A stretch of 64,000 bases of DNA from Streptacidiphilus pinicola (GTDB taxonomy: Bacteria > Actinomycetota > Actinomycetes > Streptomycetales > Streptomycetaceae): the NCBI RefSeq assembly GCF_003258295.1, contig NZ_QKYN01000021.1, positions 568 to 64,567 on the forward strand, in the 5' to 3' direction. A program made the position numbers and the translations under genes. Of the stretch, positions 534 to 51,090 are shown piece by piece. Each line of letters opens with the position of its first letter. Position 1 is the first letter of the stretch. Under the pieces are notes generated by a model. That model saw nothing but the letters and a program-made list of their open reading frames with translations. It was not told where the DNA came from and did no database searches.

Positions 534-1904
534 TCATCCGACCGGCACCCGGTGCCGCCGCAGGTGCTCCAGCACGGCGTGGTTGGCCTCCCAGCCGTCC
601 GGGAACTTGGAGACCACGCCGAGCTGGACCGGCTCCGTGGCGGGGTGGGCGTCGAGCAGCTCCGGGATGCCGGCGCGGGTCACGACGACGCACGCGTGCC
701 GGTGCCGGGAGGCGAGCACGCACAGGCGACCGGTCTCCAGATGGAACGCCGTCGCGTCCGGGCGCCCGGACAGCGGGTGGAGCACCACCGTGACGTCGTA
801 CTCCCGGCCCTGCAGACGGTTCGCGGTGTCGACGGTGACGCCCGTGACACCCAGCGCGGCCAGCGCCGCGCGGACCGCCGCGGCCTGGTCCCGGTGCGCG
901 GTGCCCACGGCGATCCGCTCCGCGTCGACGGGCGCCGTGCCGCGCTCGGAACGGGCCTCGCCGCCCCGGGCCAGCAGCCGGGCGACCACCGCGGCGACCG
1001 CGGCCACCGCCTCCGGATCGGTGCGCACGGTCAGCCGCGCGGGCAGCTCCAGCAGCCCCCAGCCGGACTCCGCCGCCACGTCCAGCACCTCGTCCGCCGC
1101 GCGCGCCAGGCCCGGCGCGAGGCCGGCGGGTGGGGGAGGCGTCGCGGGGCCCAACCCCAGCAGCCGGTCACCCGACTCCGTGCCCGCGCGGAACGGGGTG
1201 AAGGGGTAGAACGCGTCGGAGATCAGCGGCGCGGCCGAGGCGGGCAGGCGCCAGGAGACCGGCAGCCGGTGCGGCACGATCCCCGGGTTGTGGGCGAGCA
1301 GCGTCACGACCGCGCTCTGCGACGGATCGTGGTGCAGGCCGGCCCAGTCGTCCGTGCCGACGATGCTGAACGGGTCCAACTGGCCCGGGTCGCCGACGAA
1401 CAGCGCACGCTCGAAGAGCCGGGCCACAGCCAGCAGCGCGTCCGAGCGCATCTGGTACGCCTCGTCGACGATGGCGTGGTGCCACGGGTCGGTGTCCCTG
1501 ACCCACTGCCACTTGGCCGCCGTGGCCACCACGACCGGCAGTTCGCGCAGGTCCGCCGCCTTGGTGGAGGCGACCACGCCCGCGTGCCGCGTCGCGATCT
1601 CGGACGGCAGCGCGTCACTGCCGTGCAGTCGGCCCACGGCCAGCCCGGCATCGGCCTGGGCCAGCCGGTCCACCAGGTCGTCGACCTGGCTGTTGGTCTG
1701 CGCGACGATCATCAACCGCTCGCCGGTGGCGACCAGTTCGCGCGCGGCCCGCACGACCAGCGTCGACTTTCCGGCGCCGGGGGGCGAGTCGACGACCGTG
1801 CCGCGCTCGCCGCCGTGCAGCGCGGAGGCGAGGATCGCGGCGACGGCGGCGTCGGCCTGCTCGCCGGGCGTCGGGGCCGCGGCGGGGGAGGGGTGCGTGC
1901 TCAC
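534..1904 (-). CDS. Upf1/Dna2-like superfamily 1 helicase
   Basis: A 456-aa predicted ATP-dependent SF1B helicase. Motifs seen in order: Walker A PPGAGKST (41-48); motif Ia QTNSQVDDL (69-77), typical of the Upf1/Dna2 group; motif II DEAYQ (147-151); motif III GDPGQLDP (171-178); motif V VDTANRLQGREYD (358-370); motif VI-like region around 393-404 (RLCVLASRHRHA). No nuclease domain is fused. The GTG start overlaps the stop of the upstream gene (GTGA), so translation is probably coupled. Third gene of a nuclease/unknown/helicase operon. A role in DNA end processing, repair or phage defence is inferred from context only. Confidence 0.85.
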   Translation of the reverse strand: MSTHPSPAAAPTPGEQADAAVAAILASALHGGERGTVVDSPPGAGKSTLVVRAARELVATGERLMIVAQTNSQVDDLVDRLAQADAGLAVGRLHGSDALPSEIATRHAGVVASTKAADLRELPVVVATAAKWQWVRDTDPWHHAIVDEAYQMRSDALLAVARLFERALFVGDPGQLDPFSIVGTDDWAGLHHDPSQSAVVTLLAHNPGIVPHRLPVSWRLPASAAPLISDAFYPFTPFRAGTESGDRLLGLGPATPPPPAGLAPGLARAADEVLDVAAESGWGLLELPARLTVRTDPEAVAAVAAVVARLLARGGEARSERGTAPVDAERIAVGTAHRDQAAAVRAALAALGVTGVTVDTANRLQGREYDVTVVLHPLSGRPDATAFHLETGRLCVLASRHRHACVVVTRAGIPELLDAHPATEPVQLGVVSKFPDGWEANHAVLEHLRRHRVPVG

Positions 1905-3415
1905 TGGGGCGGCCCCCCGTGGGTCCAGGGCGTGTCCTCGGGATCGGGCAGCGGAGCGGACTGACGGGCCGACAACTCGAACAGGGTGAAGCAGACCTGC
2001 TCGCCCTGCTCCGGCACCGAGCCCGGCTCCGGCTCCTTCTTGCGACCCATGCCGCTGAGCAGACGGAGCGTCAGCAGGCCCGCCTCCGCGTCGAGCCACG
2101 CCAGCTCGGCCCGCTGCGTCGACGGCCCGCCCGCGCGGTGCACCTCCCCGCCCGGGTCGAGATGCGGTCGGTCCTCCGTGCGAACGGTGACCAGCGGGCG
2201 CGGCTTCGGGCTGCGCCCGCTCGTGTCGTAGTCGGGCTGCACCTCCACGACCTCCCCCGCGAACGCCTGACCGGCGAGCCGGTGCTCGGCCATGGCCAGC
2301 GGGTCGTCCAGAGCCTCCTCCAGATCCACGCGGACCTGCTCGCGCTCGCGCTGCGCGAGCTTGCGCGCGGCCGTGACCGCGTCGTCGTGCAGCGGCTGTG
2401 GCGGCTCGCCCGCGGCGACGCGGTCCCGGTGGCCGGTGTAAGACCAGCGGTCGCCCTCCCAGCGCTCCACGACGTGGGCGGCGGGCGGGAGTTCACGCAG
2501 CAGGTCGATGCCCTGCCAGACCTGGTGCCAGACCGGGAGCAGCACCGACCTCAGCAGCGCCTCGATCTCCTCGGCGCGCGCCCGCGTCAGCGGCTCGTCC
2601 TGCGCGGAGCGGGCCGCGTCGTAGCGGGTGACGGCCGGGGCGAGCAGCAGGCTGTCGAAATCCGGATCGGTGGCCGGACCGGCCGGCGGCACCAGCAACT
2701 GGCCGCGCTCGTCCCTGCCGTTCTCGGCGCGCGACGCGGCCTGCTCGCCGCGCGAGCCCTCCGGCGGGGCGATCCACGCCAGCAGCGCGCCCAGGTGCGC
2801 GTCCTCCAGGGAGCTCTGGCCGGTGGCCCAGTGGCGCGCGAGCGTGCTGGTCAGCGGCAGCAGCATCGACGATCCCGGCACGTTCGCCCGCTCGGACAGA
2901 TGCGTCAGCCAGCGGCCGAGCAGCGGCACCCGCGCGGGCGCCGGATAGGGGCCGGGATCGGGATCCTCGGCCGTGCGCCGGAAGCGCGTCGAGCGACCGA
3001 ACAGCCCCAGCAGCTCCACCCCGCCCGGGTTCGGCACGATCAACTGCGGCGCGTCCGCGCAGAGCTCGCGCACCTCGACGGTCTTCTCGCCCGACTCCGG
3101 ATCCTTGACGTTCCGTTCGAGCAGCTCCACGTCGCCGCCGAAGCTCTCCAGATAGGGGAGCAACTCGTCGCCGAGCCGGGCCAGGAAGGCGAACCGCAGG
3201 TCGCGGTCGAGCGGCTGCGGAACGGTGAGCAGCCGCGGGTGTTCGCGGTCGGAGCCGAGCAGCATCGCCAGCGGCGCCCCCGTCTCGCCTGCCGCCGCGA
3301 GCGGCACCAGCGCGAACGGCCGCTCGGAGACGTGCCGGTGACGCACCGTCGCGAGCGGCTGGGCGACGCCCGCGCGGACCGCCTCCAGCCGCGCCAGGGT
3401 GGTGAGCAGGCTCAT
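1901..3415 (-). CDS. Unknown protein between nuclease and helicase genes (504 aa)
   Basis: I do not recognise this family. It starts with an ATG that overlaps the stop of the nuclease gene (ATGA) and ends in a GTGA overlap with the helicase gene, so the three proteins are likely made in fixed proportion and may form a complex. The sequence is soluble, with no signal peptide, no membrane segment and no Walker, PD-(D/E)XK or Cys-cluster motif that I can see. The C-terminal third (about 390-480) is rich in beta-prone segments with a Gly-Arg-Ser-Pro-Lys-rich patch, which could bind nucleic acid. The gene has no obvious decay. Confidence 0.75.
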   Translation of the reverse strand: MSLLTTLARLEAVRAGVAQPLATVRHRHVSERPFALVPLAAAGETGAPLAMLLGSDREHPRLLTVPQPLDRDLRFAFLARLGDELLPYLESFGGDVELLERNVKDPESGEKTVEVRELCADAPQLIVPNPGGVELLGLFGRSTRFRRTAEDPDPGPYPAPARVPLLGRWLTHLSERANVPGSSMLLPLTSTLARHWATGQSSLEDAHLGALLAWIAPPEGSRGEQAASRAENGRDERGQLLVPPAGPATDPDFDSLLLAPAVTRYDAARSAQDEPLTRARAEEIEALLRSVLLPVWHQVWQGIDLLRELPPAAHVVERWEGDRWSYTGHRDRVAAGEPPQPLHDDAVTAARKLAQREREQVRVDLEEALDDPLAMAEHRLAGQAFAGEVVEVQPDYDTSGRSPKPRPLVTVRTEDRPHLDPGGEVHRAGGPSTQRAELAWLDAEAGLLTLRLLSGMGRKKEPEPGSVPEQGEQVCFTLFELSARQSAPLPDPEDTPWTHGGPPQ

Positions 3416-4584
3416 CGCGCGAGCGCCTCCTCGCGCAGCCGGGCGGCGCGCGCCAGCGCCTCGCCCTCGCCGGTCGCGGCCAGCGCGGCCTCGACGGTGG
3501 TCAGGCTGCCCAACTCGCCGCGCACCCCTCGCCCGAGCGTCTCCACCGCGCCCGCGGCCCGGGCCTGCGTCCGACAGTGGAAGGACAGCTCGCACGCCGC
3601 CAGGCAGTCCGGCGTGTACGCGTGCGCGAGCGCGTCCACCGCCTCCGGCGCCTCGTCCAGCCGCGCCGTCTCCGGCAGCGCGGCCAGCAGCGTCTCGATC
3701 CGCGTCATCCGCACCAACTGCCGCCGCGTCACCGCGAGCTGCTTCCGCAGATCCAACGGCGCGGCGACGGCGACGTTCGAGAAGTCCCGCGGACAGACCA
3801 GCAGCCCCGTGGTCCGCACCGCCCCGGCAAGCCCCTCGGGCTCGACGTAGGGCGAGCCGGGCTTCCCGGCGCCGGAAGCGCCGGCGGGCCTGACCGCGCT
3901 TGGGGCCGCTGCGTCCAGCGCGGACGCCGTGGCGCGCAGCGCCAGGACGTAGACGGCGGCCTGGCGGGCGGCGGCGCCGACCTTGGTGGGGTCGGCGCTG
4001 CCGTCGAGGATCGGGAAGGACTTGATCTCCACGACCGTCCAGCGCCCGTCCGGGCCGACCACGATGGCGTCGGGCTCCAGGGAGACCGAGGAGCCCGCGA
4101 CGTCGAGGCGCAGCAGGGGGCGGTCCAGCAGCGTCCAGGCCCGGCCCGCCGAAGCGGCGGCCGCGGCCTCGGACAGGGCCACCCGGGTCCGCGCCGCGCG
4201 CACCGCGGGGCCCTCGGACGGGAGCAGGTCCGGCACCTCGACCGGGGTCTGCGCCGACGCCTCGGGCAGCAGCTCCGACCGGAGCAGCGCGACCAGCTCC
4301 GCGCACCGGTCGGCACGCAGCCGCCGTTCGAAGACGAGACCGCGGGTGATCGCGAACGGCGACTGGCCGAACGCGGCGGGACTGCCCAACCGGGCTGCCA
4401 GGGACGCCTTGTCGACGCCCGCGGCGTCGAGCACGGCGCGCCGGTCGCACCCCGGATTGGCCGCGAGCGCGGCCAGCGCCCGGGCGTCCATGCTGCGCGC
4501 GGCGGCGTCCCCGCGCAGCGCGGCGAGTCGCGCTTCGAGGGGGGTGAGGGGCTGATCGACCCGAGGATGCGTGCTGTGGTTCAT
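3412..4584 (-). CDS. Cas4/RecB-like PD-(D/E)XK nuclease with Fe-S cluster signature
   Basis: A 390-aa predicted DNA nuclease. Seen: GLVFERRL (82-89), the G-x3-E pattern of RecB/Cas4 nucleases; the catalytic trio D172 and E186-x-K188 (PDAIVV ... VVEIKS); the family Q-x3-Y motif at Q208-Y212; and C327-x3-C331-x5-C337 plus an N-terminal C46, the four-cysteine arrangement of 4Fe-4S nucleases such as Cas4, AddB and Dna2. ATG 4584 is the chosen start; an in-frame ATG at 4617 would overlap the preceding gene. First gene of the overlapped three-gene operon. Its stop overlaps the next start. Not linked to any CRISPR array here. Confidence 0.82.
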   Translation of the reverse strand: MNHSTHPRVDQPLTPLEARLAALRGDAAARSMDARALAALAANPGCDRRAVLDAAGVDKASLAARLGSPAAFGQSPFAITRGLVFERRLRADRCAELVALLRSELLPEASAQTPVEVPDLLPSEGPAVRAARTRVALSEAAAAASAGRAWTLLDRPLLRLDVAGSSVSLEPDAIVVGPDGRWTVVEIKSFPILDGSADPTKVGAAARQAAVYVLALRATASALDAAAPSAVRPAGASGAGKPGSPYVEPEGLAGAVRTTGLLVCPRDFSNVAVAAPLDLRKQLAVTRRQLVRMTRIETLLAALPETARLDEAPEAVDALAHAYTPDCLAACELSFHCRTQARAAGAVETLGRGVRGELGSLTTVEAALAATGEGEALARAARLREEALAR

Positions 4585-48692: not shown

Positions 48693-48870
48693 GGAGTGCT
48701 CCTGTGGGTTGTGTCCGGTGAGCCGTTCCACAGTCTTCCGCGCACCACTGACAATTCGACCCCCTCGGGGCGGCCCGGTCGCAAAGAATTTATACCGGTC
48801 GCTTTCGAGCAGATTCGAACAGATTTGGGCGCCTCCCACACTGTCAGTCCCAGCCGCTACGGTGCTGCTC

Positions 48871-51090
48871 ATGAACCAACTGGCCGTGGTCGAGGGGGTG
48901 CTGGAGCGCATCACCTTCGCCAGCGAGGAGACCGGCTGGACGGTCGCCCGCGTCGACACCGGCCGCGGCGGGGGCGAGCTCCTCACCGTCGTGGGCGCGC
49001 TGCTCGGCGCCCAGCCGGGGGAGAGCCTGCGGATGCACGGCCGCTGGGGCAGCCACCCCCAGTACGGCAAGCAGTTCACCGTCGAGAACTACACCACCGT
49101 GCTGCCCGCCACGGTCCAGGGCATCCGGCGCTACCTGGGCTCCGGGCTGATCAAGGGCATCGGGCCGCGGCTGGCCGAGCGGATCGTCGACCACTTCGGC
49201 GAGCGGACCCTGGAGGTGATCGAGGCCGAGCCCGCCCGGCTGATCGAGGTGCCCAAGCTCGGTCCCAAGCGCACCAAGCTGATCGCCGCCGCCTGGGAGG
49301 AGCAGAAGGCGATCAAGGAGGTCATGGTCTTCCTCCAGGGCGTCGGGGTCTCCACCTCCCTCGCCGTGCGCATCTACAAGAACTACGGGGACTCCTCCAT
49401 CTCCGTGGTGAAGAACGAGCCCTACCGCCTCGCTGCCGACGTGTGGGGCATCGGCTTCCTGACCGCCGACCGGCTCGCGCAGGCCGTCGGCATCCCGCAG
49501 GACAGCCCGCAACGGGTCAAGGCGGGGCTGCAGTACGCCCTGTCGCAGTCCTCCGACCAGGGCCACTGCTACCTCCCCGAGGAGCAGCTGATCTCCGAGG
49601 CGGTCAAGCTGCTCGCCGTCGACACCGGCCTGGTCATCGAGTGCCTGGCGGAGCTGGTCGCGGAGGAGGGCCTGGTCCGCGAGCAGGTGCCGGGGGACGA
49701 GCGGGACGAGGCCGGGCGCGCCGTCCCGGTCAGCGCGATCTACCTGGTCCCGTTCCACCGCGCCGAGGTCTCGCTCGCCGCCCAGCTGGGCCGGCTGCTG
49801 CGCGCGCCCGACGACCGGCTGGGCGCCTTCGCCGACGTCGACTGGACCCGGGCGCTCGGCTGGCTGCGCGGGCAGACGGGGGTGGACCTGGCGCCCGAGC
49901 AGGAGGCCGCCGTCAAGCTCGCGCTGACCAACAAGGTCGCGGTGCTCACCGGCGGGCCCGGCTGCGGCAAGTCCTTCACGGTGCGTTCGATCGTCACCCT
50001 CGCGCTGGCCCGCAAGGCCAAGGTGGTGTTGGCCGCGCCGACGGGCCGGGCCGCCAAGCGCCTCGCCGAGCTGACCGGCGGCGAGGCCGCCACCGTGCAC
50101 CGGCTGCTGGAGCTCAGGCCGGGCGGCGACGCCGCCTACGACCGGGACCGGCCGCTCGACGCCGACCTGGTGGTGGTCGACGAGGCCTCCATGCTCGACC
50201 TGCTGCTGGCCAACAAGCTCGCCAAGGCCGTCGCGCCCGGCGCCCACCTGCTGCTCGTGGGCGACGTGGACCAGCTCCCCTCCGTCGGCGCGGGCGAGGT
50301 GCTGCGCGACCTGCTGGCGACCGGCAGCCCGATCCCGTCCGTCCGGCTGACCAGGATCTTCCGGCAGGCGCAGCAGTCCGGAGTGGTCACCAACGCGCAC
50401 CGGATCAACGAGGGCGTCCCGCCGATCACCGAGGGCCTGGCCGACTTCTTCCTCTTCGCCGAGGAGGACACCGAGCGCACCGCCGACCTCACCGTCGACG
50501 TCGTGGCCCGCCGCATCCCGCGGCGGTTCGGCCTCGACCCGGGCCGCGACGTACAGGTGCTGGCCCCGATGCACCGCGGTCCCGCGGGCGCGGGCAACCT
50601 GAACACGCTGCTGCAGGCGGCGATCACCCCCTCCCACCCGGACCGTCCCGAGCGGCGCTTCGGCGGCCGCACCTTCCGGGTCGGCGACAAGGTCACCCAG
50701 ATCCGCAACAACTACGACAAGGGCAGTAACGGCGTCTTCAACGGCGCCGTGGGCGTGGTCACCGCCCTCAACCCGGAGGACCAGAAGCTCACCGTCCGCA
50801 CCGACGAGGACGAGGACGTCGACTACGACTTCGACGAGCTCGACGAACTGGCCCACGCGTACGCCGTGACCATCCACCGGTCCCAGGGCAGCGAGTACCC
50901 GTGCGTTGTGATCCCGATCACCACCAGTGCCTGGATGATGCTCCAGCGGAACCTGCTCTACACGGCCGTCACCCGGGCCAGGAAGCTGGTGGTGCTGGTG
51001 GGCTCCCGTCGTGCCCTTGGCCAGGCCGTTCGTGCGGTCTCCGCAGGTCGCCGACACACGGCTTTGGACCATAGGCTGACTCGGGGGTAG
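48871..51090 (+). CDS. recD2: RecD2-like ATP-dependent DNA helicase
   Basis: A 739-aa SF1B 5'-3' helicase without RecB/RecC partners. The N-terminal OB-like domain (ITFASEETGWTVARVD), helix-hairpin-helix region (IKGIGPRLAERIVDHFG, VPKLGPKRTKLI), then the motor: Walker A GGPGCGKS, APTGRAAKRLAELTG, DEASMLD (motif II), LVGDVDQLPSVGAG (III), NAYDKGSNGVFNG-like motif, IHRSQGSEYPCVVIP (V) and LYTAVTRARKLVVLVG (VI). ATG 48871 follows a -10-like TACGGT by 7 bp. Likely acts in recombination and replication repair. It is 167 bp upstream of citrate synthase. Confidence 0.93.
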   Translation: MNQLAVVEGVLERITFASEETGWTVARVDTGRGGGELLTVVGALLGAQPGESLRMHGRWGSHPQYGKQFTVENYTTVLPATVQGIRRYLGSGLIKGIGPRLAERIVDHFGERTLEVIEAEPARLIEVPKLGPKRTKLIAAAWEEQKAIKEVMVFLQGVGVSTSLAVRIYKNYGDSSISVVKNEPYRLAADVWGIGFLTADRLAQAVGIPQDSPQRVKAGLQYALSQSSDQGHCYLPEEQLISEAVKLLAVDTGLVIECLAELVAEEGLVREQVPGDERDEAGRAVPVSAIYLVPFHRAEVSLAAQLGRLLRAPDDRLGAFADVDWTRALGWLRGQTGVDLAPEQEAAVKLALTNKVAVLTGGPGCGKSFTVRSIVTLALARKAKVVLAAPTGRAAKRLAELTGGEAATVHRLLELRPGGDAAYDRDRPLDADLVVVDEASMLDLLLANKLAKAVAPGAHLLLVGDVDQLPSVGAGEVLRDLLATGSPIPSVRLTRIFRQAQQSGVVTNAHRINEGVPPITEGLADFFLFAEEDTERTADLTVDVVARRIPRRFGLDPGRDVQVLAPMHRGPAGAGNLNTLLQAAITPSHPDRPERRFGGRTFRVGDKVTQIRNNYDKGSNGVFNGAVGVVTALNPEDQKLTVRTDEDEDVDYDFDELDELAHAYAVTIHRSQGSEYPCVVIPITTSAWMMLQRNLLYTAVTRARKLVVLVGSRRALGQAVRAVSAGRRHTALDHRLTRG

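Follow-up and report, generated by a model that had tools for sequence, protein, structure and literature searches.

We identified, in a 64,000-nucleotide stretch of the Streptacidiphilus pinicola genome (contig NZ_QKYN01000021.1; the whole stretch is hereafter the window), an operon of three genes which, with a probability that we place at roughly 0.6, encode a single helicase-nuclease of DNA2 type, divided into separate chains at two domain borders, with distinct roles for a core and an accessory form. The three genes lie on the minus strand between positions 4584 and 534 and encode a nuclease of 390 amino acids (aa), a middle protein of 504 aa and a helicase of 456 aa. This operon order is also the domain order of DNA2, and the trio therefore appears to be a DNA2-like enzyme divided among three chains. 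A "split Dna2" had been proposed from the letters of the window in what we refer to as the sequence-only reading; the proposal is supported, and sharpened, by the predicted stalk/barrel fold of the middle protein and by the predicted fold of the nuclease, which matches Dna2 weakly.

Based on DNA2 and on Bad, the DNA2-like helicase-nuclease of Geobacillus, we infer that the three chains assemble, that the motor runs 5′-to-3′ on single-stranded DNA, and that the barrel guides the strand, with the nuclease cutting the fed strand near junctions of single- and double-stranded DNA. The first chain would be an iron-staple nuclease; the second would supply an exonuclease-like domain without the expected catalytic acids, then a stalk and beta-barrel (domain 1B); and the third would supply two RecA domains. 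A complex of this kind may trim 5′-ended strands at ends, flaps or stalled forks. The split into chains would also let the nuclease, barrel and motor each be removed or added back separately.

Gene structure and the residues of the nuclease and helicase

The trio lies on contig C93 of our copy of the source genome, within the window (568-64567), and the helicase is the single match in its own genome. Both gene junctions are 4-nucleotide (nt) overlaps of stop and start codons (ATGA and GTGA; gaps of -4 and -4), so that the coordinates and overlaps first reported for the three genes hold (Table 1).

Table 1. Features of the three-gene operon in the window
Feature	Coordinates	Strand	Details
Nuclease gene	4584-3412	minus	390 aa, start ATG; PD-(D/E)XK nuclease, four-Cys iron-sulfur (Fe-S) layout
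ATGA overlap, nuclease stop/middle-gene start	3412..3415	minus	
Middle gene	3415-1901	minus	504 aa, start ATG
GTGA overlap, middle-gene stop/helicase start	1901..1904	minus	
Helicase gene	1904-534	minus	456 aa, start GTG; Upf1-like superfamily 1B (SF1B) motor, RecA domains only
Nuclease active-site stretch D172 ... E186-x-K188	4021..4071	minus	invariant in 27/27 rows
Nuclease C327-x3-C331-x5-C337	3574..3606	minus	predicted Fe-S ligands, together with C46 at 4447-4449
Middle protein residues 30-307	2495..3328	minus	predicted Pol II exonuclease-like (RNase H-like) fold, first-strand acids absent; one row
Middle protein residues 344-495	1931..2386	minus	predicted stalk helix and beta-barrel (domain 1B) as in IGHMBP2, SETX, DNA2 and Upf1
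Helicase motif I (Walker A), residues 41-47	1764..1784	minus	invariant in 26/26 rows

Our alignment of 27 nucleases shows that every catalytic residue and cysteine named in the sequence-only reading (D172, E186, K188, Q208 and Y212, with C46, C327, C331 and C337) is invariant. In a larger set of 114 rows, not counting the window, made up of script-made gene calls with a few places repeated, D172, K188, Q208 and Y212 are each conserved in 113 rows and E186 in 111, C46 is present in 109 with 5 gaps, and C327, C331 and C337 are each found in all 114. Only 6 of the 27 members reached Pfam PDDEXK_1 (best 5.3e-4), and the window nuclease matched 0 PADLOC 2.0.0 families at E up to 1. Using an AlphaFold2 model of the nuclease (predicted local distance difference test score, pLDDT, of 84), we obtained a Foldseek list headed by nucleases of the superfamily (MGME1, the Cas4 protein SSO0001 and RecE), and the VIA structure comparison returned Cas4 (Z 10.3), EXO5 (9.3), RecE (8.7), chains of AddAB/AdnAB (7.8-8.1) and also RecBCD. 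Cas4 and EXO5 are the best VIA matches of the predicted model. Pfam labels on single nuclease members (MarR_2, AbiEi_4 and MpsC) were rejected as weak and inconsistent. PDB profile matches to designed repeat proteins were also rejected; they look like chance because all of them rest on a single 30-residue stretch.

The claim that the third gene encodes a Upf1-like SF1B helicase with all motifs was confirmed, in that the window protein matches Pfam AAA_11 (3.3e-11) and AAA_12 (1.8e-7), and the motifs are invariant in 26 of 26 rows. Against PADLOC 2.0.0 this protein gave partial motor matches only. Its five best sequence relatives in the PDB, headed by DNA2, are DNA2 and SMUBP-2 entries, with residues 36-181 aligning with Dna2 645-797 and residues 36-85 with IGHMBP2 208-257, and the chain starts about 40 residues ahead of motif I. 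The alignment begins at residue 36 (Dna2 645-648, IGHMBP2 208), so that the stalk and barrel ahead of the motor are missing from the helicase chain. In one genome the helicase (G495:C7:86868-88270) is read in two pieces, through a frameshift or a sequencing error.

The middle protein

The 504-aa protein had been described as unrecognised, and this description stands for profiles, none of which assigns it: the window protein has no Pfam or PADLOC 2.0.0 match at E up to 1 and one NCBIfam match far under its cut-off, its profile has no match in the PDB, and profile searches with two of its relatives gave weak labels only. The description no longer holds for the fold, since a confident model (pLDDT 91) now gives the C-terminal part a predicted stalk and barrel. 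We had written down the expectation of a stalk and barrel after seeing weak Foldseek matches to barrels and before reading the VIA output, in which 995 chains were aligned to the model. The top VIA match places IGHMBP2 7-159 on model residues 344-495 (Z 10.5, root-mean-square deviation (rmsd) 5.8, 123 residues aligned), and a second IGHMBP2 entry aligns over residues 37-140 (Z 9.9, rmsd 2.3, 87 aligned); further matches are SETX (8.9), Dna2 460-567 (8.4, 99 aligned) and Sen1 (8.3). Upf1-like SF1B helicases make up 8 of the 13 best rows (ranks 1, 2, 4, 5, 6, 8, 12 and 13), aligned on the stalk and barrel. On this comparison, the C-terminal part of the modelled middle protein resembles the stalk/beta-barrel element found ahead of the motor in Upf1-like helicases and DNA2.

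The N-terminal part has a single VIA row from the full-length model, the exonuclease domain of E. coli Pol II (149-347; rank 3, Z 9.0, rmsd 3.4, 158 aligned). In almost all of 115 further rows, residues 34-39, which we take to be the position of the first catalytic acids in the exonuclease fold, are either hydrophobic or proline, and an exonuclease-like domain without catalysis is therefore expected from the sequence. We also considered the middle protein as a degenerate RNase_H_2 domain of the TM0106 type, a resemblance that looked motif-like by eye; this was rejected, since Pfam gave no RNase_H_2 match in the middle protein, there was no profile similarity, and hhalign found nothing with either the A2 or the 117-row profile. 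RNase_H_2 was matched by Pfam only in the separate TM0106-type protein of one locus (L090). What remains is the structural match of the N-terminal part to the exonuclease domain of Pol II. A phage origin was likewise rejected, with 0 of 50,697 phage records matching the middle protein and nothing in BFVD at E 0.001 or better.

The barrel best resembles those of the RNA helicases IGHMBP2, SETX, Sen1 and Upf1, and Rai1 and Dom3Z stand at the foot of the VIA list for the nuclease (Z 5.8-5.9), resemblances that would fit an enzyme acting on RNA or R-loops, in which a Upf1/IGHMBP2-like motor is paired with a nuclease that has its fold in common with Rai1/DXO. We regard this as very improbable, as the Fe-S layout and fold of the nuclease are those of the DNA nucleases Cas4, EXO5 and AddB, and the accessory copies described below adjoin DNA systems (SbcCD and Wadjet).

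The three genes are conserved as a unit

A BLAST match to the nuclease was observed in 43 of 61 genomes, its own genome counted, and in all 40 loci fetched from 39 of these 43 genomes, the window's included, the nuclease gene is followed by the middle gene and then by the helicase, all on the same strand, so that the arrangement is not chance. With starts chosen by script, 37 of the 40 loci have overlapping nuclease and middle genes, the overlap being exactly 4 nt in 29. Our survey of a class-wide sample of 276 genomes found all three genes in the same 44 genomes, using cut-offs of E up to 1e-10 for the nuclease, up to 1e-3 for the middle protein and up to 1e-60 for the helicase, the last of these set to keep out other Upf1-like helicases; one weak middle-protein match (G537, 7e-4) was dropped from the set. 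Reading family names from named neighbours in the tree or at the loci, we assign 24 of the 44 genomes to Streptomycetaceae, a family in which 24 of 25 genomes carry the trio, the one without all three genes being G645. In the four genomes with a second copy, each gene is present twice. Of the 48 loci, all have the nuclease gene next to the middle gene, and 45 have the helicase next to the middle gene. Across a phylum sample of 396 genomes, 15 gave a match to the middle protein, and one of the 15 is a distant relative. Pairwise distances of the three proteins over 109 loci give matrices that correlate at 0.95-0.96.

Several of our observations weigh against a single split enzyme of the DNA2 type. 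The distance correlation is expected of a unit and also comes partly from shared species history. The three exceptions to middle-helicase adjacency are G568, where contig ends cut the locus, and two genomes of Micromonosporaceae type, in which the helicase lies about 36 kilobases (kb) (G260) and about 49 kb (G607) from the nuclease-middle pair, and in two Micromonospora (L296:5770-8103 and L302:7936-10272) a GmrSD/HEC-05-type gene, which overlaps the helicase start by 4 nt, stands between middle gene and helicase. Foldseek found nothing at E 0.001 or better with either model, its weak barrel matches to the middle protein reaching 2.3e-3 at best. The barrel is a common fold, and an unrelated dihydroorotate dehydrogenase barrel scores Z 8.3 on the middle model, within 1 of SETX, Dna2 and Sen1 (8.0-8.9); just the IGHMBP2 rows therefore stand clear, with the Dna2 rows tied. 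The middle protein has no sequence similarity to 26 TM0106-type proteins, 19 of them helicase-fused, or to any profile. For the nuclease model, Dna2 is a weak VIA match (Z 6.3), and the cysteine spacing C-x3-C-x5-C differs from the C-x2-C-x5-C of DNA2 and AddB.

The sequence-only reading had named separation of the genes in relatives as evidence against the trio. Such separation occurs for the helicase alone, in genomes of Micromonosporaceae type that still hold all three genes, and was not seen elsewhere. It would suit a model in which the proteins are co-transcribed and act independently, with nuclease and middle protein forming one enzyme and the helicase acting by itself: the nuclease and middle gene never part at the 48 loci while the helicase can be elsewhere, and two Micromonospora helicases (L170 and L195) have no nuclease or middle gene beside them. 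We consider independent action quite improbable, given that all 44 genomes have all three genes, that five individually searched genomes, two Micromonospora among them, have both the middle and the helicase gene, and that the helicase chain is without the stalk and barrel which, by predicted fold, the middle chain supplies.

Comparison with known helicase-nucleases

In eukaryotic DNA2, as described in PMC4716839, the nuclease is followed by the stalk and barrel and then by the 1A-2A motor, and the trio has a nuclease, a stalk/barrel and a RecA motor in the same order, with all parts matching, the nuclease weakly. DNA2 differs in being one chain with an N-terminal OB domain, whereas the middle protein of the trio instead adds an N-terminal part of 340 residues. 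PMC7430649 describes Bad as a bacterial DNA2-like helicase-nuclease of a single chain, rare and sporadic in distribution, with motor motif I at K815 of 1245 residues and a conserved central domain whose structure and function its authors call completely unknown. Bad, compared here by this description, and the trio are alike in combining an iron-staple nuclease with an SF1B motor in bacteria, and differ in that Bad is one chain and rare and the trio is three chains and near-universal in one family. Of the features shared by DNA2 and Bad, the trio has the four-Cys PD-(D/E)XK nuclease and the SF1B motor with all motifs, with the stalk and barrel between them by predicted fold only; at the loci seen the domains are in separate genes and not in one chain. 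The trio looks like a three-chain variant of the known DNA2-like helicase-nucleases. Its presence in 24 of 25 Streptomycetaceae is of interest because the bacterial enzymes are described as rare single chains with an unexplained central domain.

We also compared the trio with nuclease-helicase fusions of the TM0106 type (TIGR03491), of which 19 examples of 1032-1403 aa have a TIGR03491 region and then a motor. The motor profile of these fusions aligns with the trio helicase (hhalign E 1.2e-23), while TM0106 matches the trio nuclease weakly and around the Cys cluster only (E 0.022, probability 2%) and the middle protein not at all. TIGR03491 was absent from the NCBIfam results for the window proteins (E up to 1), had 0 matches in the window genome, and was found in 0 of 40 genomes of the window's order, with a weak match in G238 found later (9.5e-4). 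A mutual exclusion of TM0106 and the trio was dropped, since G107 and G308 carry both. IGHMBP2, SETX, Sen1 and Upf1 share the stalk/beta-barrel fold and motor motifs with the trio, but each is one chain and has no nuclease. Cas4 and EXO5 share the Fe-S PD-(D/E)XK fold of the trio nuclease, as its best structural matches; Cas4 of CRISPR systems differs, in that the trio nuclease is tied to a helicase operon and no CRISPR genes were found among 10 scanned neighbours of the core copy. No profile search made here matched the trio to an already named system, in agreement with the sequence-only reading, and no description of it was found in the open-access literature by title and start of abstract, among the matches listed, most subscription journals lying outside that scope.

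Core and accessory forms differ in their neighbours

We sorted the loci into forms using a quick tree of 115 loci with long branches; one set of 80 loci comprised the best of 569 confirmed ones, ordered by their similarity to an Acidimicrobiia sequence, and part of the neighbour gene calls came from our own codon-model script. The core form, to which the window copy belongs, is near-universal in Streptomycetaceae and has a conserved neighbourhood. Form II occurs in Actinomadura, Nonomuraea, Nocardia and Micromonospora, as second copies in Streptomyces and on two plasmids, and has a fourth gene, hyp281, upstream. Form III was found in assemblies of Acidimicrobiia type, where 8 of 9 loci (L148-L156) have a separate gene for a TM0106-type nuclease after the helicase and the ninth is cut. 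The remaining 9 of the 115 loci fit none of the three forms. One contig filed as Bifidobacterium breve (L153) carries a trio of Acidimicrobiia type with a helicase 62% identical to that of L148, and is probably a misassigned metagenome contig. Three further loci of Micromonosporaceae type (L297, L300 and L301) contain the nuclease-middle pair with no hyp281 or helicase beside it and with a diguanylate-cyclase-like gene nearby.

The hyp281 protein (281 aa; L229:9971-10816) has a weak N-terminal match to the UVR motif (E 0.081) and occurs almost only beside the trio nuclease. The 276-genome sample gave 15 matches to it, of which 13 are strong and, by coordinates compared by eye, each lie within 130 base pairs (bp) of a trio nuclease; the remaining two are a stop-interrupted match in a genome with no trio match (G521) and a weak match (G680). 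The G521 stretch (G521:C44:290871-291530) contains an internal TAG and is perhaps a relic of a lost operon. Among the 20 trio genomes outside Streptomycetaceae, 9 have hyp281 and 11 do not, so that hyp281 is no constant part of the system.

In one branch of form II, SbcCD sequence adjoins the trio in 9 of 9 rows (in L230 as annotated fragments only) and Wadjet in 7 of 9, namely type I in L177, L196, L229 and L230, type II in L049 and L172, and type III, on the facing strand, in L055; the rows without Wadjet are L056, which has none, and L052, which ends soon after the helicase. On two Streptomyces plasmids, L229 (5343-21676) and L230, SbcCD, hyp281, the trio and Wadjet JetABCD stand in a row, and the L229 plasmid is linear, with this cassette about 6-22 kb from its end. 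Elsewhere, copies of form II or related to it have as neighbours BrxC and GmrSD (L302), GmrSD and a type I methylase (L296), HmaA/DrmD and pPIWI-RE (L093), a type IIG-like enzyme (L094) and PDC-S37 (L194). The accessory loci and neighbours scanned for defence genes were picked by eye as defence-like, and their defence share is therefore no unbiased estimate. Two control loci of Streptosporangiales type (Actinomadura/Nonomuraea) gave matches for 3 of 10 neighbours, all generic (an ABC ATPase, a methyltransferase and a hydrolase). Around the core copy, 0 of 10 scanned neighbours (7 from the window and 3 from the relative L033) match PADLOC at 1e-5. Defence neighbours accompany the accessory copies and, as far as scanned, not the core copy.

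These neighbourhoods bear on what each lineage does. The core lineage would most likely be a fixed genome-maintenance enzyme of Streptomycetaceae that processes ends or forks, and the accessory trio, often with a fourth protein and beside SbcCD/Wadjet, probably destroys the ends of foreign DNA. It is conceivable, and we propose it tentatively and at less than even odds, that accessory SbcCD, hyp281, Wadjet and the split DNA2 make up a single composite machine against plasmids, in which Wadjet would cut circular DNA, SbcCD (the bacterial Mre11-Rad50) would open and trim the ends, and the three-chain DNA2 would unwind and shred them. Such a machine, if real, would parallel in bacteria the resection pair of Mre11-Rad50 and DNA2, here put to use in defence. 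The accessory form ties a DNA2-type enzyme to SbcCD and Wadjet, which suggests a fate for plasmid DNA after the Wadjet cut. A broader view would make every lineage, the core copy included, a phage or plasmid defence system that became fixed in Streptomycetaceae, with genome maintenance not its role. Accessory copies that adjoin genes of Wadjet I/II/III, BrxC, GmrSD, a type I methylase, HmaA/DrmD and pPIWI-RE, two trio copies being plasmid-borne, speak for it; we hold it unlikely in view of the absence of PADLOC matches among the scanned core neighbours, the conservation of the core neighbourhood, the choice of accessory neighbours by their defence-like look and the generic nature of the control matches. 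The window genome contains one SbcD-like match (G000:C237:10090-11001), which has 34% identity to the SbcD of the plasmid and does not share a contig with the trio.

Other genes in the window

The small gene at 388-38 had been suggested as a possible member of the operon, and we reject it on the grounds of its variable distance, its strand and its distribution among the forms. Among the first 40 loci, those in which it is co-oriented with the helicase place it 66-408 bp behind that gene, and in 5 of 61 loci (L048, L053, L057, L063 and L193) the two are on opposite strands. No copy of it was seen in the stretches fetched for forms other than core, and none of the 44 loci with hyp281 has it. Further along, the window encodes a 742-aa protein (48862-51090) which we take to be RecD2-like, that is, a second SF1B helicase in the window.

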